Assembly: GCF_013113715.1 (NCBI RefSeq)
Contig: NZ_CP053344.1
Coordinates: 1,860,001 to 1,924,000 of the forward strand
Direction: 5' to 3'
Origin: Herbiconiux sp. SALV-R1
Lineage (GTDB): Bacteria > Actinomycetota > Actinomycetes > Actinomycetales > Microbacteriaceae
DNA length: 64,000 nt
Shown: piece by piece, positions 49,449 to 64,000 of the stretch
Position numbering within the stretch: position 1 is the stretch's first letter
Layout: every line of letters begins with the position of its first letter
The notes under the pieces: model-generated
Databases searched by the model: none
What the model was told of the DNA's origin: nothing
Seen by the model: the letters and a program-made list of their open reading frames with translations, nothing else
Program-made: the position numbers and the translations under genes

Positions 49449-50579
49449 TCAGCCGGCGCCCGGCTCCGACAGCACCCACCCGCCGACGATCTCCTGACTG
49501 AACGGCACGGAATAGGCCATCAGCGCCCCCGCCTGGGCGTCGCGGAAGATGCGCTGGATGGGCGAGCGCGCGAGGTAGGCACTCCCTCCGCCCACCTTCA
49601 GGGCGAGGGCCGCGGCCTTCTTCGCCACCTCGTTGGCGAGCATCTTGGCCTCGGTCGCCGCGGCCATGGCCTGGGGGTCGCGGCGGTCGGCGAGCCAGGC
49701 CGTCTGCTCGGCGAGCAGCCGCGCGGCGCGCAGCTCGGCCCACACCATCGCGGTCTCCGACTTGACCCAGGAGGCGTCGGCGAGCCGCTCCGCCGCGGGC
49801 CCCTTCGCCACCGACGCCGATGCCGTCAGCGCGTCGATCGCCGACTCGGCGATGCCGATCGACAGCGAGGCGAAGCCGACGGTGATGAGGTTCGCGTAGT
49901 CGGCCGGCGGCATTCCGCAGCGCCTCGAAGCCGGCAGCAGCGTTCGGTCGAACACGATCGTGCGGCTGCGGGTCGCCCGCATGCCGATGGTCTGGTCGAA
50001 GTCGGGCAGCGAGAAGGTCTCGTCGCGATCGACGCCGAAGAAGCCTGGCGCACCGTCGACACGGGCGTTGAGGAAGACGTGGTCGGCGATCTCCGCCCCC
50101 GACACGAAGAGCTTGCGGCCGGTGAGGGTCCAGCCGCCGTCGGCGGGCTCGAGGTCCTGCTGCGAAGCGAGGAAGAAGTTGCCTCCGGCGGGCTCCGAGA
50201 GCGCGTTCGAGAAGCGTGCGCCCGAGCGCAGCCGCTCGGCGAAGTACGCCGCCGTCGACGGCGTCGAGAGCGTCACCAGGGCGTGGGCCGCGCCCAGGTG
50301 CATGAGCCACACGGCCGCGGCGGCGGGATGCGCGGCGGCGAAGAGGCGCACCACCTGCGCCAGCGCGGCGTACGACAGCGCTTCGCCACCGAACTCGGTG
50401 GGCAGGAACGCCGCGTCGAGGCCGCTCGCCGAGATCGCGCGGAGGCGCTCGGCGGGCAGCTCTCCCGAGACGTCGTCGGCCTCGACCTGCAGGCGGAGGT
50501 CGGCGGCGAGCGCTGTGGCGGTCTCGATCCACGGCAGTTCGTGGTGCGGAACCTGCACCGGGGAGGGGCGGGTGAGCAT
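49449..50579 (-). CDS. Acyl-CoA dehydrogenase family flavoprotein
   Basis: A 376-residue protein of the acyl-CoA dehydrogenase fold: N-terminal helical domain, middle beta domain (SNALSEPAGGNFF, DGGWTLTGRKLFVSG) and C-terminal helical domain. It is a divergent member; no catalytic Glu could be assigned at either usual position, and a monooxygenase of the DszC-like branch is possible. It follows the purine cluster regulator by 75 bp of G-rich spacer, so it may be an end gene of that operon. Confidence 0.78.
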   Translation of the reverse strand: MLTRPSPVQVPHHELPWIETATALAADLRLQVEADDVSGELPAERLRAISASGLDAAFLPTEFGGEALSYAALAQVVRLFAAAHPAAAAVWLMHLGAAHALVTLSTPSTAAYFAERLRSGARFSNALSEPAGGNFFLASQQDLEPADGGWTLTGRKLFVSGAEIADHVFLNARVDGAPGFFGVDRDETFSLPDFDQTIGMRATRSRTIVFDRTLLPASRRCGMPPADYANLITVGFASLSIGIAESAIDALTASASVAKGPAAERLADASWVKSETAMVWAELRAARLLAEQTAWLADRRDPQAMAAATEAKMLANEVAKKAAALALKVGGGSAYLARSPIQRIFRDAQAGALMAYSVPFSQEIVGGWVLSEPGAG

Positions 50580-50654: not shown

Positions 50655-51395
50655 TCAGAACTGGTAGCGCGCGGTCGAGAACACCTGCGGCGGCCGCACG
50701 GTGCGCATCATCGAGTACGAGACGGTCTTGGGGTCGTGCAGCTCACGAGCGTGGAACAGCCGACGGCCGCTCAGCCCGATGCCCACGATGTCGAGCGTGA
50801 GCACCGGCGTGCCCACGGGCTGCTCGAACAGCGCAGCATCCTGCTCGCCGAGCACCTCGGCCGAGGGGGTCGCGACCTCCCAGGCGACGGCCTCGCCCCA
50901 CACCCGGGTGGCCGCCGTGTAGATCGAGTCGCCCAGGTCGACCTCGTCGCGCGGGAACGGCAGCGGCATGATGCTGAACGCCAGCATCGCCACGGCGCCG
51001 TCGGCGCGCCAGCGCTTCACGATGCGGGCGGAGGGCCGGCCGGGCTCCACCATGAGCAGCCCGGCGCTCTCCTGCGGCATCGGGACGTCGGAGATCTCGA
51101 GCACGTCGACACTGCTGACGTAGCCGAGCTGGCGCAGCAGCACGCTGTACTCCAGCTGGTCTTCGAAGCGCACGCTCATGCGGGTGGCCACGGGGTCGAC
51201 CTCGGTCGCCGCGCCCTGGCGCCGCAGCACCACGCCCTGCTGCTCGAGCGAGGCGAGCACGTCGCGCACCTGCCGTCGGGTGCACCCGACCCGCTCGGCG
51301 AGCTCGACCTCCCCCGGCAGGGTGGAGCCGGATGCCGCGGCATCGCGCACGAAACGCAGCACCCCGGCGAGCACGCGCTGGTCTTCGTCGGTCAT
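50655..51395 (-). CDS. GntR-family regulator, UTRA (HutC) type
   Basis: A 246-residue repressor-like protein. The N-terminal winged helix has GEVELAERVGCTRRQVRDVL near 30-45, and the C-terminal UTRA domain ends with SGRRLFHARELHDPKTVSYS, which binds a small effector. ATGA overlaps the permease stop, so it is the last gene of the purine transport operon. It probably controls that operon in response to a nucleoside or base (inferred). Confidence 0.88.
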   Translation of the reverse strand: MTDEDQRVLAGVLRFVRDAAASGSTLPGEVELAERVGCTRRQVRDVLASLEQQGVVLRRQGAATEVDPVATRMSVRFEDQLEYSVLLRQLGYVSSVDVLEISDVPMPQESAGLLMVEPGRPSARIVKRWRADGAVAMLAFSIMPLPFPRDEVDLGDSIYTAATRVWGEAVAWEVATPSAEVLGEQDAALFEQPVGTPVLTLDIVGIGLSGRRLFHARELHDPKTVSYSMMRTVRPPQVFSTARYQF

Positions 51396-52312
51396 GATGG
51401 GCTCACCTTCGTGCTGCGGTACAGCCTCCGCAGCTGCCGGCGTGACGTGATGACGAGCACCACGAGGGTCACCAGATACGGTATCGACTGGTACACCTCG
51501 CTCGGGAGCGTCAGCGCCGTCGACTGCGACAGCAGGGCGAAGCTCTGCAGGAAGGCGAACAGCAGGGCGCCGAGCGCGATGCCGACCGGGCGGCTGCGCC
51601 CCATGATCACGATGGCCAGGGCGATGTAGCCGCGGCCCGCGGTGATGTCGGGGGTGAACGACCCGATGGTGCCGATCGTGATGACGGCACCGCCGAGACC
51701 GGCGAGCGCTCCCCCGATGAGGAGTGCCGACGCGCCGGTGCGCTCCACCCGCACCCCGCGGAGGGCGGCCGACGCCGGGTCGGTGCCGACCGCCCGCACC
51801 GCGAGACCGAAGCGGGTGAACCGCATCACGGCCCACGCGACGACGAGCAGCAGCGCGGCGAGGTAGACGAGCGGGCTCTGGGCGAAGAGCACGGGCCCGA
51901 TCACCGGGATGTCGGCCAGCGGCCCGAGACCCGTGCGGGGAACGGTGGCCACGGTGACGTTCGTCTGGCCGCTCGGCACCCAGAGCTGGAACAGGTAGGT
52001 GCTGAGCCCGAGGCCGAGCATCGTCACGCCGAGGCCCACGACGATCTCGTTGGCGTGCAGGCGGTAGATCACGAGGTTCATCGCTACCGCCATCAGAAGG
52101 CCCACCGCGACACCGGCGACGAGCCCGAGGAGCGGTCCGCCGAGGCTCGCGCCCCACACGCCGGCGAGGGCGCCCATGATCATCATCCCCTCGATGCCGA
52201 GGTTGATGCGGCCGGCCCGCTCCACGAATCCCTCGCCGATGCCGGCGAAGACGAGCGGAGCGGCGAGCGCCAGGGTGCCGGCCAGGATGGCGACCCAGAG
52301 TTCGACGGTCAC
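51392..52312 (-). CDS. ABC transporter permease, nucleoside (BMP) type
   Basis: A 306-residue inner-membrane permease of the branched-chain/BMP superfamily (like Bacillus YufQ/NupQ), with about nine helices. It has ERAGRINLGIEGMMIMGALAG near the N-terminus and GRGYIALAIVIMGRSRP, a family signature. The GTG start overlaps the partner permease stop (GTGA). It pairs with the 391-residue permease to form the channel for the BMP binding protein. Confidence 0.92.
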   Translation of the reverse strand: MTVELWVAILAGTLALAAPLVFAGIGEGFVERAGRINLGIEGMMIMGALAGVWGASLGGPLLGLVAGVAVGLLMAVAMNLVIYRLHANEIVVGLGVTMLGLGLSTYLFQLWVPSGQTNVTVATVPRTGLGPLADIPVIGPVLFAQSPLVYLAALLLVVAWAVMRFTRFGLAVRAVGTDPASAALRGVRVERTGASALLIGGALAGLGGAVITIGTIGSFTPDITAGRGYIALAIVIMGRSRPVGIALGALLFAFLQSFALLSQSTALTLPSEVYQSIPYLVTLVVLVITSRRQLRRLYRSTKVSPS

Positions 52313-53484
52313 GGGCGGCCTCCCTCGTGCTCGGCTTCCACCAGGGTTCCGACGGTGGCCTCGCGGGCCCCTGCCGCATCCGGTGGCTCTGCGGCCGGCA
52401 CGGCCGGCTCGTCGGCGGCCTCTCGCCCGCCCGCAGGCTGCACGACCGCGGCCGGCTTGCGCTGGTACGCGGCGATGCAGGCGACGCCGACGAGCAGCAC
52501 GCCCTTGATCACCTCGGCGATGGAGGCGGGCACCGTTCCGGTGGCCGACTGCATGCCCACCGCACCGGCGGTGAGCGCCGAGAAGAACAGCGCGGCGACG
52601 ACGATGCCGACAGGCGCCAGCCCGCCGAGCAGCGCGACGGCGATGCCCGAGAACCCGACCCCTCCCGAGACCGAGCTGAGGAGCCGGTCGTTCACGCCCG
52701 CGACCTGGATCCAGCCCACGGCCCCGGCTCCGATGCCCGAGATCGCCATGGTCGAGTAGACGGTGCGGGCGCGGGTGGCGCCGAGACGGAGGGCGAGCTT
52801 CGGCCGGCTCGCGAACACGGTGAGGCGCGTGCTCGCGGCGGAGCGGTTCCAGAGCACGAGCACGACGGCGATCACGACGACGAGGAGGATGCCCCAGTGG
52901 GCCCGCGTGCCGGGGATGAGCGCAGGGAGCGACGCCGCTTCGGGGAGCTTCGCGCTCTGCGGCGTCGCGGTCTCCTCGGGTGTGGCGAGCCAGGTGCGCA
53001 ACGTCCAGCCGAGGAACCCCGCGGCGAGGTAGTTGAGCAGCAGGGTGCTGAGGATCTCGTTCACCCGCCAGCGCACCGCGAGGAAGGCGGGCAGCAGAGC
53101 CGTCGCCGCTCCCCCGGCGGCCCCGGCGAGAAGCCCGACGGGCCAGAGCACGAGGCTCGGGGCGGCGCCGCCGAAGAGGCGGTCGACGGCGAAGACGGCG
53201 CCCGTCGCCGCGATCGCCCCGACGACGATCTGGCCTTCCGCGCCCACCGAGAACACCCCCGCCCGCAGGGCCGGGATGAGGGTGAGGGCGACGATGCCGA
53301 TCGGCACGGCACCGACGAGCACCTCCCCCACCCGGTACGGGGAGCTCGACACCCCCTCGGCGAGACCCCGCAGGCCGACCAGCGGGTCGGCGCCGGCCAC
53401 GAGGATGAGCGCACCGGCCACCAGCAGCACCGCGGCCACCACGGAGGCGGTGAGCAGCCAGCGCCGTCGGTCGAGCGTTCTCAC
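52309..53484 (-). CDS. ABC transporter permease, nucleoside (BMP) type
   Basis: A 391-residue permease (like YufP/NupP) with about ten helices. Markers are LIPALRAGVFSVGAEGQIVVG and VNEILSTLLLNYLA. The last 50 residues are an Ala/Pro/Glu-rich cytoplasmic tail. The GTG start overlaps the deaminase-like gene (GTGA). With the 306-residue permease it forms the transmembrane part of a purine nucleoside importer. Confidence 0.92.
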   Translation of the reverse strand: MRTLDRRRWLLTASVVAAVLLVAGALILVAGADPLVGLRGLAEGVSSSPYRVGEVLVGAVPIGIVALTLIPALRAGVFSVGAEGQIVVGAIAATGAVFAVDRLFGGAAPSLVLWPVGLLAGAAGGAATALLPAFLAVRWRVNEILSTLLLNYLAAGFLGWTLRTWLATPEETATPQSAKLPEAASLPALIPGTRAHWGILLVVVIAVVLVLWNRSAASTRLTVFASRPKLALRLGATRARTVYSTMAISGIGAGAVGWIQVAGVNDRLLSSVSGGVGFSGIAVALLGGLAPVGIVVAALFFSALTAGAVGMQSATGTVPASIAEVIKGVLLVGVACIAAYQRKPAAVVQPAGGREAADEPAVPAAEPPDAAGAREATVGTLVEAEHEGGRP

Positions 53485-55280
53485 GACGCCTCCTCCTCGT
53501 GCGCGCAGCGGTCGACGCGGCCGGGCAGCAGCACGTCGACGAACGACTGCGAGGTGGTCTCGATCAGCCCGAGTTCGGTGATGCCGAGATCGGGCACCAC
53601 GTACAGGCCGACGAACGAGAGGATGATGTAGGGCGAGGGGATGGTGCAGCCGAGGGCGTGCGTCGCCTCGTGCCCCGCCCGCAGCGCTTCCGCCGTCTCC
53701 TCGAAGGGCGCGGCGCTCATCATGCCGCCGACCGGCAGCGGCACCCGCCCGACGACCTCGCCGTCGGCGACGGTGACGAAGCCGCCCTGCATCGCTCGCA
53801 GCTCCTCCACCGCGTGCAGCATCGCCGCGTCGTCGACGCCCACGACGGCGATGTTCATGTTCGGGCAGTTCATGGTGATGGCGATGGCGCCCCGGGTGAG
53901 ACCGAAGCCCTTGACGAAGCCGAGTCCGGTGAGGGCCTCCCCGTGATGGCGGTCGACGACCGCGATCTTCAGCACGTCGTTCGCGGTGTCGGTCTGCACG
54001 AGACCGTCGACCACCTCGAGCTCGGCCTCGAAGGCGCGCTTGAAGTAGCCCTTGTACATCTCCATCGCTCGCACCCGCGCCGTGTCGCCGGAAGCGGGCA
54101 GCGCGAACATCTGCGGATCGAGGGTGTCGGGAAGCCGCACCGTGTCGGTCATCCAGCCGGGGAGCACATCCGTGTTGGCGAACAGGGCCACGCCGTCGCG
54201 AGCCACGACCCGGCCCTCCACCACGACGACCGACGGCCTGACCTCGGCGAGGTCGGGGATGAGCTGCAGGTCGGCGAGGCGCGACGGGGCGAGCACCCCG
54301 AGCACCTGGTCGAGCCGGTAGTACGCGGCCGGCTGGGTCGTGGCCATGCGGTAGGCCAGCTGCGGGTCGACGCCGAAGCGGATGGCCTGCCGCACGTGGT
54401 GGTCGATGTGCCCCTCGGTGTGCAGGTCGAGCACGTGCTTGTCGTCGGCGCAGAAGCAGAGGCTGCGGAGGGCGGGGGCGACGCGGTCGAGGTCGGAGAA
54501 GATCGGCACGGTGTTGTCGGTGAGGGAGGCCCCCATCACGGTGATCATCGCGCCCAGGCGCACCCGTTCGAGCACCTCGTCGATGGTCGAGGAGTTGTGG
54601 TCGTCACCCACCCCCGCGGCGAGGTAGCCCCAGAGCGACTCCTCGGTCTGGGCGGCGGTGTGGCCCGTGATGCGTCGGCCGGCGACCAGCGCCTCCCGGA
54701 ACCTCCCGGTCGACTCCTCGCCGTAGTCGAACGGGTTGCCCTCACCGAGGTTCGTCGTCACCTGGTCCCAGAGGCGGCCGCGCACCTCGGCCTCGGGGAT
54801 GACGGCGCCACCTCGCTCGAGCTGCGGCGAGCCGGGGGTCTTCGGCGACACCTGCTGGAAGATGTGCAGCGGCGTCGAGGTGTGCAGCAGCGCATCCATG
54901 CCCCTGGTGCCCCACACGTTCGCGGCGCCGTTCGGGTCGGTCAGCACCGTTCCGGTGCCCCGGGCCACGCTCAGCCGGCCGAGCTCGCCCGGCGTGAGGT
55001 TCGTGTACTCGATGTGCAGATGGGCGTCGATGAAGGTGGGCACCACGTGGCATCCGGATGCGTCGATCTCCTCGCCCGCGGCGGGCACGTGCCCCCACGG
55101 CGTGAGTGCGGCGATGTGCCGCCCCGCCACGAGGACGTCGCGCTCCAGCCACTCCTCCGTTCCCGGGGACTGCACCAGGCCGCCGCGGATGACGAGGTCG
55201 GGTCGCTCCGCACCGGACGCGACGGCACGGAGCCTGCCGAGTTCGGCCGCGGTCGGGTAGAGGTCGGTCTTGTCGGTCAT
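53481..55280 (-). CDS. Adenine-deaminase-like amidohydrolase with altered active-site motifs
   Basis: A 599-residue protein with the adenine deaminase layout: N-terminal beta domain, metal-dependent barrel (FIDAHLHIEYTNLTPGE near 84, DDHNSS, FCADDKHVLDLHTEGHID) and a C-terminal Ade domain. Three family motifs differ. HIESS is HIEYT; DPHEIANV is DPNGAANV (115-122); HDSHN is NCPNMN (471-476). It may deaminate another purine or amide. It lies between the ATPase and permease genes, overlapping both. Confidence 0.82.
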   Translation of the reverse strand: MTDKTDLYPTAAELGRLRAVASGAERPDLVIRGGLVQSPGTEEWLERDVLVAGRHIAALTPWGHVPAAGEEIDASGCHVVPTFIDAHLHIEYTNLTPGELGRLSVARGTGTVLTDPNGAANVWGTRGMDALLHTSTPLHIFQQVSPKTPGSPQLERGGAVIPEAEVRGRLWDQVTTNLGEGNPFDYGEESTGRFREALVAGRRITGHTAAQTEESLWGYLAAGVGDDHNSSTIDEVLERVRLGAMITVMGASLTDNTVPIFSDLDRVAPALRSLCFCADDKHVLDLHTEGHIDHHVRQAIRFGVDPQLAYRMATTQPAAYYRLDQVLGVLAPSRLADLQLIPDLAEVRPSVVVVEGRVVARDGVALFANTDVLPGWMTDTVRLPDTLDPQMFALPASGDTARVRAMEMYKGYFKRAFEAELEVVDGLVQTDTANDVLKIAVVDRHHGEALTGLGFVKGFGLTRGAIAITMNCPNMNIAVVGVDDAAMLHAVEELRAMQGGFVTVADGEVVGRVPLPVGGMMSAAPFEETAEALRAGHEATHALGCTIPSPYIILSFVGLYVVPDLGITELGLIETTSQSFVDVLLPGRVDRCAHEEEAS

Positions 55281-56818
55281 GGGAGCTCCTTCTCGGCGCC
55301 GGGGGTGTCGCCCGTGAGGCCGGCCATGGCGCGGCCGATGCGATCGGTGGTGGCCTCGGCGGCGCTGAGGTCGGCGACCACCCGCCCGCCGAACATCACG
55401 ACGACGCGATCGGCCACCCCGAGCACCTCCTCGAGGTCGTGCGAGGCGACCACCACGGCGGCGCCCGCGGCGGCCAGGTCGACCAGCCGCCCCCGGATGG
55501 CCTGCGCCGCCCTCAGGTCGAGGCCCTGCGTGGGGCCGTAAGCCAGCACGGCGCGGGGCGCGGTGGGTGCTCCGAGCTCGCGGGCGGCGAGCAGCTTCTG
55601 CTGGTTGCCGCCGGAGAGGCCGGCTGCCGGGAGGTCGGGGCGGGCGGGACGCACGTCGAACGCTCCGAGCGCCGCCTCGACCTCGGTGCGGGTGCGCTCG
55701 GTGCGGGTGCGCTCGGTCGCGACGGTGCCGCGGGCCGAGGAGTACAGGTCGAGGTTCTCGCGCAGCGAGAGCCCGGGCACTAGCGCCTCGGCGCGCTCCT
55801 CGGGAATCCAGGCCAGCCCGGCGTTCAGCAGCTGCACCGCGGATGCGCCCGGTGCGCATCCGTCGAGGGTCACCGTGCCGAGTTCCGGCGTCACGAAGCC
55901 GCCGAGCACGTCGAGCAGGAGGTTCTGCCCGCTGCCCGCCACCCCCGCGATGCCGACGATCTCGCCGGCCCGCACCTCGAGGTCGACGCCGTCGAGGCGG
56001 GCGTCACGGGTCGACCCGACGACGAGTCCGCGCGCCGACAGCACGACGTCTCCGGGGGTGCGCGTCACGCGGGCCGAAGGCGGCGGCAGCTCGCCGACCA
56101 TCAACCGGGCGATCCCGGCCGAGTCGAGCCCGGCCGCCGAGCCGTGGTGCACGGCCTCGCCGTGCGAGAGCACGGTCAGGTCGTCGGCGACCTGACGCAC
56201 CTCGTCGAGGCGGTGGGTGATGAGCAGCACGGCCGTGCCGAGATCGCAGAGCGACCGCAGGTGCTCGAACAGTCCGCCCACCTCGAGCGGGCCGAGGCTC
56301 GCCGTGGGTTCGTCGAGGATGAGGGTGTGGGCGCCCTCGGCCAGCGCCACGACGATCTCGCCGAGCTGGCGGTGGGCCTGGGTGAGCGACGAGGCGGGCG
56401 TGTCGAGGTCGACCTCCACCCGGGCGCGGTCGAGCGTCTCGCGGAGCAGCGCCTTGGCCGACCGGCGATCGGCGAGACGCCGCGGCCCGACCAGGAGGTA
56501 GTTCTCGACCAGGCTCAGCTCGCCGACGAGGCTGAGCTGCTGCGGCACCATGTTGATCCCGCGGCGCTTCGCCTCGCTCCGGTCGCGCGGCGCGAAGGCC
56601 TGGCCCCCGAGCGTCATGGTGCCGGAGGTGGTCCGTTCGATGCCGGCGAGCACCTTGGCGAGCGTCGACTTGCCGGCGCCGTTCTCGCCCACGAGGGCAT
56701 GCACGGCACCCGGCCGCACGACGATCGAGACGTCGCGGAGCGCCGCCACCGGGCCGAAGCTCTTGGAGATGGACCGCGCCTCGACGACGCGGTCCACCTC
56801 CTCGGGAGAGACGACCAT
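55277..56818 (-). CDS. ABC transporter ATP-binding protein, nucleoside (BMP) type
   Basis: A 513-residue protein with two ABC modules, as in YufO/NupO and RbsA. The first Walker A is GENGAGKST and the first signature is SLTQAHRQLGEIV. The second module has the degenerate Walker A VAGSGQN and the LSGGNQQK signature. It starts with a 1-bp overlap with the binding-protein stop (TGATG), so it is translated with it. It energises the import of a purine nucleoside. Confidence 0.93.
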   Translation of the reverse strand: MVVSPEEVDRVVEARSISKSFGPVAALRDVSIVVRPGAVHALVGENGAGKSTLAKVLAGIERTTSGTMTLGGQAFAPRDRSEAKRRGINMVPQQLSLVGELSLVENYLLVGPRRLADRRSAKALLRETLDRARVEVDLDTPASSLTQAHRQLGEIVVALAEGAHTLILDEPTASLGPLEVGGLFEHLRSLCDLGTAVLLITHRLDEVRQVADDLTVLSHGEAVHHGSAAGLDSAGIARLMVGELPPPSARVTRTPGDVVLSARGLVVGSTRDARLDGVDLEVRAGEIVGIAGVAGSGQNLLLDVLGGFVTPELGTVTLDGCAPGASAVQLLNAGLAWIPEERAEALVPGLSLRENLDLYSSARGTVATERTRTERTRTEVEAALGAFDVRPARPDLPAAGLSGGNQQKLLAARELGAPTAPRAVLAYGPTQGLDLRAAQAIRGRLVDLAAAGAAVVVASHDLEEVLGVADRVVVMFGGRVVADLSAAEATTDRIGRAMAGLTGDTPGAEKELP

Positions 56819-57840
56819 CAGCCGATCGTGACGGATCCGTCGCCGATGCCCGCGATGAGCTCGTCGAGCTTGGTCGCGACGTCGTCGGAGACCTTCCCGT
56901 CGACCGTGTTGACGGGCTGGTAGACGATGCCGCCGTTCTGCACGGTGGAGGTCACGCCCTTGCCGCCGAAGTCGCCCGCGGCGACCTCCTCGACCCAGGC
57001 CTTCACGATCGGGTACATGTCGAGGTCGACCGTCGAGACGTTGGTGGCCAGCGCCGCTTCACCCGCCGCCGAGGAGACCCCGACGCTCAGCACGCCGGCG
57101 TCGGCCGCCGCCGAGCCCACGCCCGTCGCGATGCCGTCGCCCGTGGTGTAGACGAGCTGGGCGCCCTGGCCCACGAGGCCCGTGGTGGCCGCGGCTGCCG
57201 CCTGCGCGTCGTCGAAGCTGCCCGCGTAGACCACCGGGAGCAGGGTGGCCGAGGGGTTGGCCGCCGTCACGCCCTGCTGGAAGAAGGCGTCGGTGGCCTT
57301 GACGAAGTCGAGCTCGAGGCTCTCCACGCGCCCGATCGGCGTCGCGCCGGTGAGACCGGCGATGTAGCCGGAGAGGTAGCCGACCTGGGGGGTGTCGTAG
57401 GTCCAGGTCTCGACGTTGTCGGTGTACTTCTCCAGGATGTCGGGCCCGCCCGAGGCGGTGAACTTCACGTCGGGGAACTGCTCGGCCACCGAGAAGACCG
57501 CGTCGCCCAGCTCGATGCCGTGCCCGATGATGAGGTCGTAGCCCTGGCTGGCGAAGTCGGCGATCACCGGCTCGCTCTCGGCGGGGTCGGACATCTGGTC
57601 GCGCAGCTCGTAGTCGATGAGCCCTTCGTCTTCGAGCTTCTGCAGCGCGTCGGCGAGTGCCTGGTTGAAGGCACCGTCGTTCGTGTTGCCGGGGGTGAGT
57701 GCGCCCACCTTGATGACCTCGGCGGCCGAGGTGGCGGTTCCGGTCGAGGTGCCGGCGCTGCTCGAGCTGCACCCGGCGAGGCCGAGGGCGGCGACTGTGG
57801 TGAGAACGGCTCCGGTGAGGAGTGCTCCGCTTCTTCTCAT
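56818..57840 (-). CDS. BMP-family ABC transporter substrate-binding lipoprotein
   Basis: A 340-residue lipoprotein: signal with lipobox LAGC (Cys24), Ser/Thr-rich linker, then the BMP/PnrA periplasmic-binding fold (KVGALTPGNTNDGAFNQAL, GHGIELGDAV, TTGDGIATGVG). Relatives bind purine nucleosides. It probably captures the nucleoside, and adenosine is suggested by the adjacent adenosine deaminase gene (inferred). It is the first gene of the transporter set. Confidence 0.92.
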   Translation of the reverse strand: MRRSGALLTGAVLTTVAALGLAGCSSSSAGTSTGTATSAAEVIKVGALTPGNTNDGAFNQALADALQKLEDEGLIDYELRDQMSDPAESEPVIADFASQGYDLIIGHGIELGDAVFSVAEQFPDVKFTASGGPDILEKYTDNVETWTYDTPQVGYLSGYIAGLTGATPIGRVESLELDFVKATDAFFQQGVTAANPSATLLPVVYAGSFDDAQAAAAATTGLVGQGAQLVYTTGDGIATGVGSAAADAGVLSVGVSSAAGEAALATNVSTVDLDMYPIVKAWVEEVAAGDFGGKGVTSTVQNGGIVYQPVNTVDGKVSDDVATKLDELIAGIGDGSVTIG

Positions 57841-57902: not shown

Positions 57903-58592
57903 TCAGTCCGGCCGATCGACGAGCCCGTCCGCGAGGGTCGGGCCGACGAAGGCCGAGCTGGGGGTCGACCAGTGCCCGAGCAGGGCGCCGGTCGCGATCG
58001 AGAAGCACGGATCGAGCCCCTCGACGACGGGAGGTGAGTCGGGGTAGAGCATCCGGTCGGTGACGCACACCACGGCGTGACCGTGCAGGGTGCGTGCCGT
58101 GCCGACGGCATCGGGGCCGAGCACGCCGCGCTGCAGGGCGCCGAGGAGGGCGGCCTGGGCCAGGAAGCCGCGGAGGCCCGGGTCGTCGGCGCACTCCGCT
58201 GCGGTCTTCGTGCATCCGTCGACCCAGCGGATGCGCCCGTCGGCTTCGAGCTGGACCGAACCGTGCTGCACGCCGAGCGCGCTCTGGCCCTGGGACTCCA
58301 CGTCGATGGTGAGCGTGAACCGGTCACCGTTCCGTAGCGAGGTGATGTGCTCGACGTAGAGCGGCTCCGACTTCGTGCCGGTCACCTCGTACCCGTCGGG
58401 CCAGGCCGCGACGATCGGCGCGAGCGCGATGGTGTCGCCGTCGGGTGCGGGTGCGGGCACCGAGGGGTGCGCGGTGACGGGAGCCGAGCCCGCGCTGTCC
58501 GCAGCCCCGAACAGGGCCGAGACGAGCATCGCCACGGCCGCGACGCCGCCGAGGGCGAGCAGCCCCGCGCGAGGGAGGGTGAGATCGATCAC
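57903..58592 (-). CDS. Membrane-anchored protein of unknown function
   Basis: A 229-residue protein with an N-terminal membrane helix (about 9-30), a Pro/Ala-rich linker and an extracytoplasmic domain of about 180 residues with four cysteines likely in two pairs (GCTKTAAEC, and a C-terminal pair). GTG at 58592 overlaps the adenosine deaminase stop (GTGA). No family is recognised. The position suggests a role at the cell surface in nucleoside uptake or sensing. Confidence 0.65.
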   Translation of the reverse strand: MIDLTLPRAGLLALGGVAAVAMLVSALFGAADSAGSAPVTAHPSVPAPAPDGDTIALAPIVAAWPDGYEVTGTKSEPLYVEHITSLRNGDRFTLTIDVESQGQSALGVQHGSVQLEADGRIRWVDGCTKTAAECADDPGLRGFLAQAALLGALQRGVLGPDAVGTARTLHGHAVVCVTDRMLYPDSPPVVEGLDPCFSIATGALLGHWSTPSSAFVGPTLADGLVDRPD

Positions 58593-59698
58593 CGCACCGT
58601 CTCCGGTTCGGCCGAGCGGGCGAGCTCGGCGAGGAGGTCGCGCTTGAGGTCGTCGTCGGCGAACGACGCCCGGATCGACTCGGCGGCGAAGCCCGCGAGC
58701 TCGCCGAGGCCGTAGCCGAACACCGACGCGGTGACGGCCCAGTCCTCGTCGAGGGTGCAGCCGAGGGGCGCGGGGTCGTCGGTGTTGATCGTCACCCGCA
58801 CACCGGCGTCGACGAGGCGGGGCAGCGGATGCGAGGCCCAGTCGGGGTAGACACCGAGCGTGATGTTCGACCGGGGGCACACGTCGAGCGGGATGCCCTC
58901 GTCGGCCAGGCGGCGCACGAGCACCTCGTCCTCGATGGAGCGCACCCCGTGGTCGATCCGTTCGGCGTGCAGGTGGTCGAGCGCATCCCACACCCCTTCC
59001 GGCCCGCTCGACTCGCCCGCGTGCACGGTGCGGTGCAGTCCCCCGGCCTCGGCGAGCCGGAACGCCCCGCGGAACTTCTCGCCGGTGCGGCCGCTCGCCT
59101 TCTCGTCGCCGTCGACGCTCAGCGCCACCACCCGGGCGGGCCGCCGGTCGAGGAGTGCGGAGACGGCCTGCTCGGCCTCGGCCGCCGTCTGGGTGCGCAG
59201 CAGCGAGTAGGCGATGCCGGTGGCGCACAGGCCGTCTTGCTCGGCCTCCGCGAAGCCCGCGGAGAGCGCCTCCATGAGCGCGACCTCGCGGCCCCGCCAG
59301 GCGCTCCAGTGGGTGGGGTTCACGATCACGTCGGAGTAGCGGATTCCGGAGGCGGTCTGCCGGGCGGCGAAGGAGTAGGCGATGCGGGCCGCCTGCTGCG
59401 GCGTGCGCACGAGGCCGCACTGCCAGTCGAGGAAGCGCAGGAAACCGGTGAGTCCGGCGCCGCCCACCCCGCGACCGGTGCCGCCGGTGGTGACGGCGGG
59501 CATCGCGAAGGAGTCGTGGGTGCTCACGTCGAAGATCGTGGCGGGCGGCCCGGGCAGGGTGGCGCCGTTCTCCTTCGCCAGCGTGAGCAGGTCGACGAGT
59601 GCGAAGGTGCCCTCGAGGTGCACGTGCACCTCGGCCTTCGGGAGCAGCCGGATGTCCTGTTCGTCGACTCGGGGCTCGGTGGGCACGTGCGCGGGCAT
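58589..59698 (-). CDS. add: Adenosine deaminase family protein
   Basis: A 369-residue enzyme that should deaminate adenosine (or deoxyadenosine) to inosine. Family motifs are complete: the HxH in KAEVHVHLEGT, HAGESSGPEGVWDAL with the catalytic Glu, RIDHG, and NTDDPAPLG carrying the last zinc-binding Asp. The ATG at 59698 faces the divergent deaminase gene. It leads the purine nucleoside operon. Confidence 0.93.
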   Translation of the reverse strand: MPAHVPTEPRVDEQDIRLLPKAEVHVHLEGTFALVDLLTLAKENGATLPGPPATIFDVSTHDSFAMPAVTTGGTGRGVGGAGLTGFLRFLDWQCGLVRTPQQAARIAYSFAARQTASGIRYSDVIVNPTHWSAWRGREVALMEALSAGFAEAEQDGLCATGIAYSLLRTQTAAEAEQAVSALLDRRPARVVALSVDGDEKASGRTGEKFRGAFRLAEAGGLHRTVHAGESSGPEGVWDALDHLHAERIDHGVRSIEDEVLVRRLADEGIPLDVCPRSNITLGVYPDWASHPLPRLVDAGVRVTINTDDPAPLGCTLDEDWAVTASVFGYGLGELAGFAAESIRASFADDDLKRDLLAELARSAEPETVR

Positions 59699-59894: not shown

Positions 59895-60395
59895 ATGAGC
59901 GATCAGACCACGACAGAGCTCGGGAGCACCGACGCGCACTTCCTGCGGGAGAGCATCCGGGTGGCGGAGCAGTCACGAGCCGACGGCAGGCATCCGTTCG
60001 GCGCCGTCGTCGTCGATGCGACGGGCGCCATCGTGGCCTCCTACGGCAACAACTCCCTTCCGCCGGAGGGCGACCCCACCCAGCACGCGGAGCTGCGCGC
60101 GGTGGCGGCCGCCTTCCGCAGCGTGGGGACGGACGGCATGGTCGGCAGCACCCTGTACACGAGCGCAGAACCCTGCGCGATGTGCTCGGGGGCCGTCTAC
60201 TGGACCGGGATCGATCGGGTGGTGTACGCCCTGTCGGAGCAGCGTCTGCTCGAACTCACCGGCGACCACCCCGAGAACCCGACCTTCTCCCTCCCCTGCC
60301 GCGAGGTGTTCGCCCGCGGCCAACGCACCATCGCCGTCTCGGGCCCCCACCTGGAAGACGAGGCAGCCGAAGCGCACCTCGACTTCTGGAGCTGA
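59895..60395 (+). CDS. Nucleoside/nucleobase deaminase (CMP/dCMP family)
   Basis: A 166-residue zinc-dependent deaminase. It has the HAEL motif (catalytic His-Glu) near residue 62 and PCAMCSG near 95-101, which gives the two zinc Cys ligands. The length and the flanks GRHPFGAVVV and STLYTSAEPCAMC fit guanine deaminase/tRNA-adenosine deaminase-type members, so the substrate could be guanine, cytosine or adenosine. It is divergent from the adenosine deaminase operon and likely shares its control. Confidence 0.87.
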   Translation: MSDQTTTELGSTDAHFLRESIRVAEQSRADGRHPFGAVVVDATGAIVASYGNNSLPPEGDPTQHAELRAVAAAFRSVGTDGMVGSTLYTSAEPCAMCSGAVYWTGIDRVVYALSEQRLLELTGDHPENPTFSLPCREVFARGQRTIAVSGPHLEDEAAEAHLDFWS

Positions 60396-60444: not shown

Positions 60445-61638
60445 TCAGTCGGGTAGGCGACCGGAGAGCACCTTCCCCCGGCTCACCACGGCGACGATGC
60501 GTTCCGGGGTCAGCTCGGCGAGATCGAGCCAGGGTCGCCCGCGCACCACGACGAAGTCGGCTGCGAAGCCCTCGTCGAGGCGACCGAGGCGGTTGCCGAG
60601 CCCGAGACCGTCGGCGGCGTCGGAGGTGCCGGCGACCAGCGTGCGCTCGTCCGACCAGCCGAAGACCGCCTTCATCGCCCTGAGCTCGTCGAGCTGCCCG
60701 CCGTGCTGCACAAAGCGACCGTTGGCATCGGTGCCGAGCACGAAGCGCACCCCGGCCTGCGCCGCCTCGCGGAACGCGGGGTCACGTCCCGCGATGGCCT
60801 CCCGGGCCTTCGCACGAGCGTCGGGCCCCACACTGTGCGCGCCCTGCGCCACGAGATCGTTGATGAGCAGTGTCGGCGCGACCGGGATGCGCCGGGCGAC
60901 GAGGGCCTCGACCTGCCGGGAGACGACACCGGTGGCGTGCTCGAGGGAGTCGGCGCCCTCCTCCATCGCGATGTCGATCCCCTCCGCGGTGTGCGCGTGC
61001 GCCGCCACCAGCATCCCCAGGGCGTGGGCCTCGTCGACCGTCGCGGCGATCTCCGCCCGCGTCTGGTTGCGCCAGCCGACCCGATCGCCCATCGAGAGGA
61101 TGCCACCGCTGGTGTAGATCTTGATCCCGGTCGCGCCTTCCCTGGCCCACTGGCGCACCAGGCGACGGCATTCGTCGGGCGAGTCGGCGACCGGCGGTCG
61201 CTCGCGGAACCGGGGAGGTGTGAACAGGTCGCCGTGGCCGGCGGTCATGCCGACCGGGCCACTGGCGAGGAGCCGGGGCCCGTCGACGACGCCCTGCTCG
61301 AACGCGCGGGCTACCGAGATCTGCACCGGCGAGGCGGCGAGATCGCGCATCGTCGTCACACCGAACGAGGCGAAGCGGAGGGCGTGGGCGACGACGTGCA
61401 CCGCCTTCTCGGCGTCGGGGGTGACGAGCGGCCAGGCATCGCCGGCGCCCGCGCCGTCGAGAACGCTCGTGTCAAGATGCACGTGCGTGTCGATGAGCCC
61501 GGGGATGACGGCGAGGCCCTGGTGGCGATCGTCGGCGGGCACCACCTCCTCGATGCGGTCACCCGACCAGCCGAGACGCACGGCCCCGCGTTCCGCCGAG
61601 CCGTCCCACAGCGTGATCCCGTCGAGAATGCGAGTCAT
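60445..61638 (-). CDS. Metal-dependent amidohydrolase
   Basis: A 397-residue amidohydrolase-superfamily protein: IPGLIDTHVHLDT with the HxH, the GIKIYTSGG carboxylated-Lys segment, VAAHAHTAEGIDIAMEEG, EHATG and VRFVLGTDANG with the last Asp. It is closest in style to Xaa-Pro dipeptidase/imidazolonepropionase-like enzymes; the true substrate is unknown. It shares its start region with the divergent PPC-domain gene. Confidence 0.85.
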   Translation of the reverse strand: MTRILDGITLWDGSAERGAVRLGWSGDRIEEVVPADDRHQGLAVIPGLIDTHVHLDTSVLDGAGAGDAWPLVTPDAEKAVHVVAHALRFASFGVTTMRDLAASPVQISVARAFEQGVVDGPRLLASGPVGMTAGHGDLFTPPRFRERPPVADSPDECRRLVRQWAREGATGIKIYTSGGILSMGDRVGWRNQTRAEIAATVDEAHALGMLVAAHAHTAEGIDIAMEEGADSLEHATGVVSRQVEALVARRIPVAPTLLINDLVAQGAHSVGPDARAKAREAIAGRDPAFREAAQAGVRFVLGTDANGRFVQHGGQLDELRAMKAVFGWSDERTLVAGTSDAADGLGLGNRLGRLDEGFAADFVVVRGRPWLDLAELTPERIVAVVSRGKVLSGRLPD

Positions 61639-61655
61639 GACGCTCCTGTCCGCGT

Positions 61656-61668
61656 GTCGTCAGACGAC
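61656..61668. promoter_or_regulatory. Operator candidate between divergent amidohydrolase and PPC-domain genes
   Basis: GTCGTC-A-GACGAC is a perfect 13-bp palindrome that contains the FadR-type GntR consensus TNGTNNNACNA. It lies beside TANNNT-like -10 candidates in both directions (about 61669-61674). The regulator in the cluster is UTRA/HutC type, so a different GntR protein may act here. Confidence 0.5.
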
Positions 61669-61713
61669 TACGCTATCGGTCGGCGGCCCACACCCCCGTC
61701 CGGAAGGATGCCC

Positions 61714-62178
61714 ATGTTCGCGGCGACTGCTGAGACCGGCCGCACGGTGATCGCCGTGCTCGAACCGGGCGACAGCGTGCTCGAGGCCCTCGCGGCGGCC
61801 TGCTCACGGTTCGCCATCGAAGGCGCCGTCATCCCCGTGTTCCTCGGCGCCTTCACCGAGCTCGCGTTCATCGGCGCCGAGGAGCCTCCGCTCGACGAGG
61901 ACGAGCCGATGACGTCGGTCTCGATCGTGCGCAACTGCGAGGGCCTCGGCTCCGGCACGGTGACCGCGGGCCCGGACGGGCCGCAGGTGCACCTGCACGC
62001 CTCCGTGGGAGCGAAAGGCGACCGGGCGCGGGCGACGGCGGGCCACGTGCTGCGCGGCACGGTGCAGTACCCCACCGAGGTCGTGATCATCGAGATCCTG
62101 TCCCCCGCGCTCTCGCGCCGGGCGAACGACCGGGCGCGAGGCATCGCCACGCTCCACATCGAGGGCACGGCCGACTGA
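61714..62178 (+). CDS. PPC (DUF296) domain protein
   Basis: A 154-residue single-domain protein of the PPC/DUF296 type. The core is TVIAVLEPGDSVLEALAAAC followed by the Gly-rich AIEGAVIPVFLGAF and a histidine segment VHLHASVG that could hold a metal. In plants this domain accompanies AT-hooks, and in bacteria its role is not settled. ATG at 61714 is preferred to ATG 61708 because GGAAGG is 6 bases upstream of it. The stop abuts the creatininase-family stop. Confidence 0.75.
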   Translation: MFAATAETGRTVIAVLEPGDSVLEALAAACSRFAIEGAVIPVFLGAFTELAFIGAEEPPLDEDEPMTSVSIVRNCEGLGSGTVTAGPDGPQVHLHASVGAKGDRARATAGHVLRGTVQYPTEVVIIEILSPALSRRANDRARGIATLHIEGTAD

Positions 62179-62940
62179 TCAGACCGACGGGTCGTGCCTC
62201 CGGTCTCCCGACGCCCAGCCGCGGTGGGAGTCGATCTGCTCGATCGAACGGGCGACCACGAACGAGATGATGGTCTCGCCCTTCTCCGCGGTCGAGGCGC
62301 GCGGGTCACCGAACACGCCGCTCGGCGAGAGGGTGTCGAAGGGGATGGGCCGCGTGCCGAAGTCGGCCGGCAGCTGGGGATAGGCTGCCTCGTAGCGCTC
62401 GGGCCTCACCAGGCTCGGCTCGATCGCGAGCACCATGGAGGTCTCGAGCTCGTCGGCGTGGCAGAGACCGGGAGCCGCCCAGGGCGACTCCTTCACCGCG
62501 TCGCCCACCTCCACGAGCCCCGGGTAGTCGAGCACCAGCACGTCGCCGGCCCCGCCAAGGGCAGCGGCTGCGGCGTGCACCGGCGCGCGATTGCCGTAAT
62601 CGCCGTTCACCACGACGAGGGTGGTGACGCCGAACGACCAGACGGCTTCGACGATGTCGGTGCAGAGGGCGGCGACGGTGGAGGGCTTCAGCGACACCGT
62701 TCCGGGAAACGCCGCGTTGTCCCAGGTGCTGCCGTAGCAGACCGGCGGCAGGAGCAGGGCCGAGTAGTGCTCGGCGAGCCGCTCGGCGATCGCCGTGCAC
62801 TGAAGGGTGTCGGTCGAGAGCGGGAGGTGCGGCCCGTGCTGTTCGAGCGCGCCGAAAGGGAGGAACGCGAGGGTGCCGCCCGCGTCGACATGGTCGCGCA
62901 CGTCGGTCCAGCTCGCCTCGCCCAGTCTCAGCAGCGTCAT
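62179..62940 (-). CDS. Creatininase-family amidohydrolase
   Basis: A 253-residue protein with FLPFGALEQHGPHLPLSTD near residues 27-45 (Glu and His metal ligands) and GNRAPVHAAA, plus HADELETSMVL. The family includes creatininase and enzymes of riboflavin-like or mycofactocin pathways; no such genes are adjacent. The stop TCA directly meets the PPC-gene stop TGA in TGATCA with no base between. Confidence 0.86.
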   Translation of the reverse strand: MTLLRLGEASWTDVRDHVDAGGTLAFLPFGALEQHGPHLPLSTDTLQCTAIAERLAEHYSALLLPPVCYGSTWDNAAFPGTVSLKPSTVAALCTDIVEAVWSFGVTTLVVVNGDYGNRAPVHAAAAALGGAGDVLVLDYPGLVEVGDAVKESPWAAPGLCHADELETSMVLAIEPSLVRPERYEAAYPQLPADFGTRPIPFDTLSPSGVFGDPRASTAEKGETIISFVVARSIEQIDSHRGWASGDRRHDPSV

Positions 62941-62998
62941 GCCCTCACGATAGCGCCAGGATAGAGCGGGCCGGGATCGAGCAGCCCCAGCGCCCCCC

Positions 62999-64000
62999 TC
63001 ACCACTGCGGCGGGTGCATCCGGTCGCCGTGCAGGCGGCGTTCAAGTTGCCGTGCAAGGGCGAGCAGGGTCGCCTCTCCCCCGGGTCGGCCGATGAGCTG
63101 GGCGCCCATCGGGAGGCCCTCCGCCGTCTGCAGCACGGGGAGGGTGATGGCCGGCAGCCCGCTCACGTTCACGAAGGAGGTGAACGGGGTGAACAGCACC
63201 TGCTGCTCGAAGTTGTGCTCCCCGTCGTCGGGGTCGTACCAGCCGAGGGGGCGCGGAGGCAGCGCGAGCGCGGGCGTGAGCACGGCGTCGAAGCGCCCGA
63301 GCTGGGCGAGGAGCGAATGCTCGTACAGCGACAGCGTGCGCAGCGCCCAGGCGAGCTCGGAGGCAGGCAGTGCTCGCCCGCGGTGCAGGAGCCACCGGGT
63401 GAGGGGCTCGAGCAGGTGCTCGTTCGACTCGTCGGCCGGCAGCTGCGAGGCACCGGCCTGCCAGATGACGCGGAACGCGCGACCGTAGTCGGGAGCCGGC
63501 TCGAGCGCGAGGCCCTCGACGCCGTGGCCGAGCGCGTCGAGGGTGTCGCGGGCGAGGTCGAGGGCGGCCTGCGCCTCGGGGGCGACGACGACGTCGTAGT
63601 CGGCTGCCCACGGGGTGTCGGTGGTGACGCCGATCTGGAACCGGCCCTCGCCGCGGATGGCGGCGCCGAGGAAGAGCCCGTCGTCGTACTCCGGCGGCCT
63701 CAGCGTGTGGGTGAAGGCGATGCGGTCGCCCCGGCGCTCGATGAGCCCGTCGAGCAGGAACGCCGCGTCGGTGACCGTGCGGGCGAGCGGCCCGGCCACG
63801 GGCAGCCCGGCGAGGGCGTCGAGCCCGGAGCCGGCGGGCACCAGCCCGCGCGACGGCTTCAGCCCCACCAGCCCGCAGGCGGCGGCCGGGATGCGCACCG
63901 AACCGCCGCCGTCGGACCCGGGAGCGAAAGGCAGCAGCCCCGCAGCCACGGCGACCGCCGCGCCTCCGCTCGACCCTCCGGGGCTAAGCGTGGTGTCGTA
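62999..64000 (-). CDS. Amidase signature family enzyme, 5' partial
   Basis: The 3' end of an amidase (334 residues present); the start lies beyond base 64000. The signature region is here: [16 protein letters not shown] followed by [13 protein letters not shown], with the cis-Ser and nucleophile Ser of the Ser-cisSer-Lys triad; the Lys is outside the window. The rest matches the amidase C-terminal half ([23 protein letters not shown]-like, about residues 280-305 of the partial sequence). Substrate unknown. Confidence 0.85.

Follow-up and report, generated by a model that had tools for sequence, protein, structure and literature searches.

The window considered here, a stretch of 64,000 nucleotides from Herbiconiux sp. 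SALV-R1 (contig NZ_CP053344.1, positions 1,860,001 to 1,924,000), contains at 53481..55280 on the minus strand a gene for an amidohydrolase resembling adenine deaminase (ADE). On balance, this gene probably belongs to a separate subfamily of ADE-type amidohydrolases, the substrate of which would be a modified purine derivative and not plain adenine. Proteins of this subfamily are called variants below. The gene is a single open reading frame of 599 codons, running from an ATG at 55280 to a stop at 53481, and the Pfam scan of its product (protein P0001, 599 amino acids) detected both the Amidohydro_1 (PF01979) and the Adenine_deam_C (PF13382) domains. The best solved relative is the adenine deaminase Atu4426 (PDB 3nqb, 1.9e-51), and the closest named relative found, with 93% identity, comes from a Herbiconiux assembly. 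The best NCBIfam match is TIGR01178, the adenine deaminase equivalog, whose cut-off of 472.5 bits is not reached (348 bits). This cut-off is weak as a sole criterion, because a tandem ADE copy with intact canonical motifs in locus L055 also falls below it (368.4). A preliminary description of the window had stated that the ADE fold is retained, and the Pfam domains and the alignment agree with this as a prediction from sequence. Four pairs of variants bear the mark of purifying selection, with nonsynonymous divergence (dN) of 0.04-0.18 and synonymous divergence (dS) of 0.45-1.38.

Residues of the predicted active site

The 49 variants comprise 47 loci obtained by scanning genome contigs with a two-sequence alignment, together with the window protein and the L003 homologue (61%). 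The loci were retrieved through the patterns CFCADDK and AMEMY[KD]G, which cover residues 275-281 and 405-411, so that invariance in these two segments, CADD included, is built in for most variants, other positions being unaffected. Near-copies are included, as are the truncated rows L072 and L075 and the row L076, whose variant gene has a shift of reading frame near its 3' end, towards the C-terminus of the product. The 32 other family members used for comparison are four references and 28 proteins from as many loci found by similarity; these loci are the 17 ordinary-ADE controls described below and the 11 best-scoring non-variant loci of a scan of 240 alphaproteobacterial genomes, and are not a random sample.

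In the phmmer alignment with Atu4426, HIEYT (89-93), DPNGAANV (115-122) and NCPNMN (471-476) of the window protein match HIESS, DPHEFGNV and HDSHN, a correspondence confirmed residue by residue. The preliminary description had named these three changes. They do lie at positions homologous to HIESS, DPHE and HDSHN, and an alternative alignment was not borne out. The description needs qualifying in two respects: HxHIE keeps its metal-binding histidines, and the form DPNG belongs to the window's own clade.

All coordinates in this section refer to the minus strand. Within HLHIEYT (residues 87-93, 55002..55022) both metal histidines are kept and the canonical Ser92 has become Tyr, the residue of 49/49 variants against Ser in 32/32 other members. 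DPNG (residues 115-118, 54927..54938) replaces DPHE in the alignment. Residue 117 is N in 44 variants and D in 5, with His in 32/32 others, and residue 118 is C in 32, G in 13 and A in 4, with Glu in 32/32 others. The site takes the forms DPNC (19 variants), DPNG (13), DANC (8), DPNA (4), DPDC (3) and DADC (2). The motif DHN (residues 227-229, 54594..54602) retains the metal His228, and Asn stands for the canonical Glu229 in 49/49 variants (others E 28, C 4 of 32). Met249 (54534..54536), which residue mapping places at the site of Atu4426 Arg260, is also present in all 49 variants, the other members having R in 28 and Q in 4 of 32; in the published model this Arg contacts the base, adenine, according to the text of PMC12133300. 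CADD (residues 277-280, 54441..54452) includes the metal and general-base Asp279, and Ala replaces Thr278, which is found in 32/32 other members. NCPNMN (residues 471-476, 53853..53870) is aligned in place of (S)HDSHN. Position 472 is Cys in 48/48 variants with letters there and His in 32/32 others; His475 likewise occurs in all 32 others, and the variants mostly have NCxNxN where the others have HDSHN.

The six predicted metal ligands, H87, H89, E180, H207, H228 and D279, are kept in the alignment of 49/49 variants, their roles being taken from the text of PMC12133300. One of them, Glu180 (54741..54743), is the predicted bridging ligand and corresponds by alignment and spacing to YerA Glu179, the ligand named in the same text. 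As for the features that mark ADE members, the binuclear ligands (HxH, E, H, H, D) are thus present, and the His and Glu of DPHE, both histidines of HDxHN and the base-contacting Arg are missing. What DPHE and HDSHN do in ADE is deduced from conservation and from what that text says of YerA and Atu4426.

As the six predicted ligands, including the general-base Asp, are invariant, the enzyme should still activate water, which would proceed through the binuclear metal centre and this Asp as in ADE. The substrate pocket probably differs, with the base-contacting Arg replaced by Met and two conserved carboxylates gone as part of a joint change at several otherwise conserved positions near the base. 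The variant is most likely a competent metal hydrolase in nucleobase catabolism with a substrate other than plain adenine. A different substrate had already been proposed in the preliminary description, and it appears to be the best reading because the residue contacting the base in published models has changed; this support does not extend to the choice between a purine and a cyclic amide.

In a maximum-likelihood tree of 79 rows, computed by a quick method, the variants (36 rows) lie on one side of a single branch with a Shimodaira-Hasegawa-like approximate likelihood ratio test (SH-aLRT) value of 98, the program having warned of long branches that meet. The changed motifs thereby define one subfamily, a question raised in the preliminary description. 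Eleven near-copies and L004, L027, L031, L072 and L075 had been left out before the tree was made, and YerA is not in it. The 49 members of the clade come from Actinomycetota, Alphaproteobacteria and Gammaproteobacteria. Of the matches listed for the 240 alphaproteobacterial genomes, one, from the seed genome, reached 668 bits and the rest scored <=286. Among the matches listed for 296 genomes of the same class as the window, only those in the window genome and in one other (G100) were full-length close relatives. The bimodal scores and the few carriers in the class scan indicate that the clade is rare but widespread. Locus L004 (genome G132, from the same class) has an internally deleted variant copy with the ADD-type deaminase gene, described below, still beside it.

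The variants group at SH-aLRT 99 with a sister clade of Frankia-type ADE relatives (L012 and L014-L031, from one family, probably Frankiaceae). Except for Glu180, which is left in 4 rows, the metal ligands (five of six) are missing from 19/19 rows of this clade, and the C-terminal domain is well conserved. The Frankia-type gene lies about 10-15 kb from genes for HIU hydrolase and OHCU decarboxylase in G100 and, to judge from a similar match, in G305; on account of this nearness its product may be a pseudo-enzyme with a regulatory role in purine degradation. The existence of such a sister clade would favour the idea that the variant, too, has ceased to be an enzyme and serves as a sensor or scaffold. 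This is very improbable, as the invariance of six ligands in 49/49 variants is hard to explain without catalysis.

Most variants carry a further feature at the C-terminus. Among the 46 with a readable end, CxC followed by His occurs in 29, in 26 of them as CRCP, and always together with Cys118; CxC is absent from the remaining 17, whose residue 118 is Gly or Ala. The pattern was picked after inspection of the tails, and it occurs in 0/25 non-variant rows with a readable tail. Examples of the (C)CRCPxHxH-like tail are L054, L055 and L066, and Cys592 of the window protein (53505..53507) is a possible remnant of it. The tail and Cys118 are both absent from the clade of Herbiconiux, Microbacterium, Demequina and Nesterenkonia, and both are kept in the Microbacteriaceae loci L048 and L074. 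From the tree, it looks as if they were lost jointly once, in the window's clade, and for this reason the Fisher value of 6e-13 is not independent evidence. The joint loss suggests that Cys118 and the tail form one site.

Conserved partner genes and host genomes

The neighbourhood of the 47 variant loci was compared with that of 17 ordinary-ADE controls. Eight of the controls come from the 10 full-length ADEs of Actinomycetes (two on short contigs were excluded) and nine are alphaproteobacterial, taken from 15 non-variant PF13382 matches, mainly the higher-scoring ones, in five variant-bearing genomes. The partner queries, taken from variant loci, were applied at E 1e-12, which lowers sensitivity in the controls. 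Genes in the flanks were called by a simple script and not by a standard gene finder, and the Fisher values overstate independence because the loci and genomes are related.

An ADD-type deaminase was found near the variant in 39/47 loci and 1/17 controls, and an acyl-CoA-dehydrogenase-fold flavoprotein resembling SfnB and DszC in 38/47 and 0/17. When only loci with at least 4 kb on both sides are counted, the figures are 35/37 and 33/37. These two are the strongest partners of the variant. A BMP binding protein was present in 31/47 loci against 0/17 controls (27/37 with at least 4 kb on both sides), and a CDA-fold gene resembling guanine deaminase in 17/47 against 0/17 (16/37). The link to BMP transporters suspected in the preliminary description is accordingly present, although it is weakened by the permeases of 3/17 controls and by SBP_bac_5 or NMT1 proteins in some loci. 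Related permease genes occur in 28/47 variant loci and in 3/17 controls (L105-L107), so that in some controls a transporter of the BMP type may have escaped the query because its sequence is too divergent.

In the window, the variant gene shares 4-base overlaps with the ABC (ATP-binding cassette) ATPase gene upstream (55277..56818, minus strand) and with the gene for ABC permease A downstream (52309..53484, minus). The variant gene therefore lies inside a transporter operon. A BMP-family solute-binding lipoprotein (56818..57840, minus; NF047927, 68.3 bits against a cut-off of 400), ABC permease B (51392..52312, minus) and a GntR-like regulator (50655..51395, minus), labelled from a reading of its sequence alone and with homologues in other loci, are encoded next to these genes. 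The identity of a putative B6 transporter was considered for the ABC subunits and rejected, the NCBIfam matches lying far below their cut-offs. The flavoprotein gene is found at 49449..50579 (minus), the gene of the ADD-type deaminase, with a RIDHG motif, at 58589..59698 (minus), and that of the CDA-fold deaminase, whose guanine-deaminase-like label is inferred, at 59895..60395 (plus). Between the ADD and BMP genes there is a small secreted or lipoprotein-like protein (about 57903-58570, minus), also seen at L036:6695-7363 and L054:6836-7453. It occurs at this place from Herbiconiux to Rhizobium, and the L036 copy has no Pfam match.

The order and content of the module vary. Demequina and some Microbacterium loci (L043, L044, L046) have a short form consisting of regulator, ADD-type deaminase, variant and flavoprotein. 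Where no BMP gene was detected, SBP_bac_5-like binding proteins were recognized in L043, L044, L046 and L048 by similarity to the L039 copy. The variant of L045 (Nesterenkonia), also without a detected BMP gene, is surrounded by NMT1-type binding proteins, an NtaA/DmoA-type oxygenase and sulfopyruvate-decarboxylase-like genes. In L069 and L070, the end of the variant gene and the flavoprotein match have about 20-30 bases in common.

The ADD partner is closest to PDB 3rys and 3ou8, with which it has RIDHG in common, as against RVGHG in 2ada and RIGHG in 6n91; 37/40 sequences of the ADD cluster carry RIDHG. Both 3rys and 3ou8 are presumably adenine deaminases, the name given to them in the PDB being adenosine deaminase. 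The partner would handle an adenine-type amino group. The flavoprotein of L066 matches DszC (2e-47) and methanesulfinate monooxygenase (2e-37), and reaches 232.6 bits with SfnB, below the cut-off of 430.9. That of the window is more distant (SfnB, 117.2 bits) and has cyclohexanecarboxyl-CoA dehydrogenase as its best solved match, for which reason the word oxygenase is less sure for it. A sulfur-containing substrate, suggested by the kinship with SfnB and DszC and by the NtaA/DmoA-type oxygenase and the sulfopyruvate-decarboxylase-like gene of L045, was not adopted, since this flavoprotein fold has many substrates.

Further ADE genes accompany several variants. A canonical ADE with DPHE and HDTHN directly adjoins the variant in seven loci (L055, L058, L059, L062, L068, L072, L078). 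Ser92, His117, Glu118, His472 and His475 are all found in 10 of a further 12 genes of the ADE family near variants; the other two, in L065 and L077, do not have them but still keep Glu229 and Arg249. The latter two (L065:15751-17511, L077:18923-20683) represent a further divergent ADE type with HVHTEV, AFDQIAPV and SPDDEN, in which DHE and the Arg are kept, and the L065 gene adjoins glutamine-synthetase-like and acetyl-CoA-hydrolase-like genes.

Another PF13382 gene was present in 11 of 22 host genomes, and the variant stood alone in the other 11, among them the window genome, where a search of the genome found no PF13382 gene besides the window gene. The extra PF13382 genes of two Frankia-type host genomes include a pseudo-enzyme. 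Plain adenine is an unlikely substrate for the variant, since the cluster encodes a deaminase of the adenine type and half of the tested genomes have a further member of the ADE family. One alternative, that the variant is still an ordinary adenine deaminase and that its motifs drifted with no effect on function, draws on TIGR01178 being the best NCBIfam match and on the 11 hosts that have no other PF13382 gene. It is nevertheless unlikely. The changes affect positions fixed in 32/32 other members, an adenine-type ADD deaminase is encoded in the cluster, a canonical ADE adjoins the variant in the seven loci named above, and the TIGR01178 score stays below the cut-off, though the copy with intact motifs misses it as well.

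Possible substrates and reactions

The variant would hydrolyse a modified or oxygenated purine-derived heterocycle in the catabolism of nucleobases, its step adjoining that of the flavoprotein. The loss of the DPHE and DHE carboxylates leans weakly towards a ring amide, over an exocyclic amine, as the bond that is cut. A bolder proposal, advanced only tentatively, is an ADE-type reaction of a new kind, e.g., the opening of an amide ring in an oxygenated purine, within an undescribed oxygenase-dependent pathway formed by the ADD-type deaminase, the variant and the flavoprotein. In most members, the Cys of DPNC, the invariant Cys472 and the CxCPxHxH tail would make up an additional Cys/His site, standing in for the His and Glu of DPHE and the His of HDSHN.

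The variant could also be a hydrolytic deaminase acting at C6, like YerA, with an N6-substituted adenine or nucleoside as substrate (N6-methyladenine or the cytokinin type) and with the side chain or related bases as the target of the flavoprotein. YerA has no HDSHN in the alignment and, according to the text of PMC12133300, no third-metal residues, and deaminates N6-methyladenosine nonetheless; the adenine-type ADD deaminase of the module also indicates that adenine-like chemistry is at hand. A deaminase of this kind is rather doubtful here, since YerA keeps the base-contacting Arg252 in the same text, whereas 49/49 variants have Met at this site, as mapped through Atu4426 Arg260. In addition, the tree, which does not contain YerA, separates the variants together with the Frankia-type pseudo-enzymes from the other rows of its sample. 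A literature search for a module acting on cytokinins or N6-alkyl purines found no match.

Several observations weigh against a new reaction on a modified purine. The variant could still act as the adenine deaminase of the 11 hosts without another PF13382 gene. The loss of motifs alone does not prove a new reaction, because YerA without HDSHN still deaminates and because the divergent lineage of L065 and L077 lacks DPHE and HDSHN as well. The base-contacting Arg is not strictly needed for membership in the family, as 4/32 other members have Gln instead. The partner queries originate from variant loci, which favours detection there, and two gene types were not enriched near variants, namely generic ABC ATPases (33/47 loci, 10/17 controls) and TRZ/ATZ amidohydrolases (14/47, 3/17). 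Finally, most hosts possess the ordinary urate route and give no hint of a bypass.

With regard to this route, HIU hydrolase and OHCU decarboxylase were each found in 19/22 hosts and a PF01014 uricase in 10/22. The flavoprotein and the variant had been considered as substitutes for urate oxidase and HIU hydrolase, and a general replacement is unlikely given these counts of all three enzymes. Three Acidimicrobiia-type genomes, assembled from metagenomes, gave no HIU hydrolase, OHCU decarboxylase or PF01014 uricase, other urate oxidase types not having been searched.

Beyond the cluster, the window continues from 60445 to 63949 with genes for a second amidohydrolase, a protein that is presumably PCC/DUF296-like, a creatininase-family protein and an amidase, which recur in some relatives. 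The second amidohydrolase (60445..61638, minus) resembles Xaa-Pro dipeptidase (202.3 bits, cut-off 500) and has homologues in 13 loci. The genes of this stretch suggest further steps of amide hydrolysis.

Significance and comparison with known systems

A search of the literature covering titles and the beginnings of abstracts, with most subscription papers outside it, found no description of the subfamily or of the module. Annotation by similarity would label these proteins adenine deaminases and so make pathway reconstructions wrong, since they have lost a residue that recognizes adenine along with the conserved positions around it. That two bacterial phyla have in common a module in which a flavoprotein accompanies two hydrolases of the deaminase type points to a nutrient resembling a nucleobase. 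The variants may also be regarded as a natural experiment, in which a binuclear amidohydrolase may change its substrate with the metal site fixed.

The known systems that come closest to this module each match a part of it. The flavoproteins SfnB, DszC and methanesulfinate monooxygenase are the closest relatives of the flavoprotein partner, as judged from L066, but the partner remains below the SfnB cut-off. The deaminases of PDB 3rys and 3ou8, from the adenosine deaminase family, are the closest solved relatives of the ADD partner only and not of the variant. The N6-methyladenosine deaminase YerA/Bh0637 (PDB 9jql for the C-terminal domain) has the loss of HDSHN and the binuclear metal site in common with the variant. 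Unlike the variant, it keeps Arg252, and its C-terminal domain matches the window protein weakly (1.7e-05). It offers the precedent of a family member that lost HDSHN and uses N6-methyladenosine, and it shows that shifts of substrate in the family accompany such motif loss. ADE itself, represented by AdeD of E. coli and by Atu4426 (PDB 3nqb), has the same two-domain architecture and the same six metal ligands as the variant, whereas its DPHE, HDSHN, HIES and DHE motifs and its base-contacting Arg are all replaced in the variant, and its gene partners differ.

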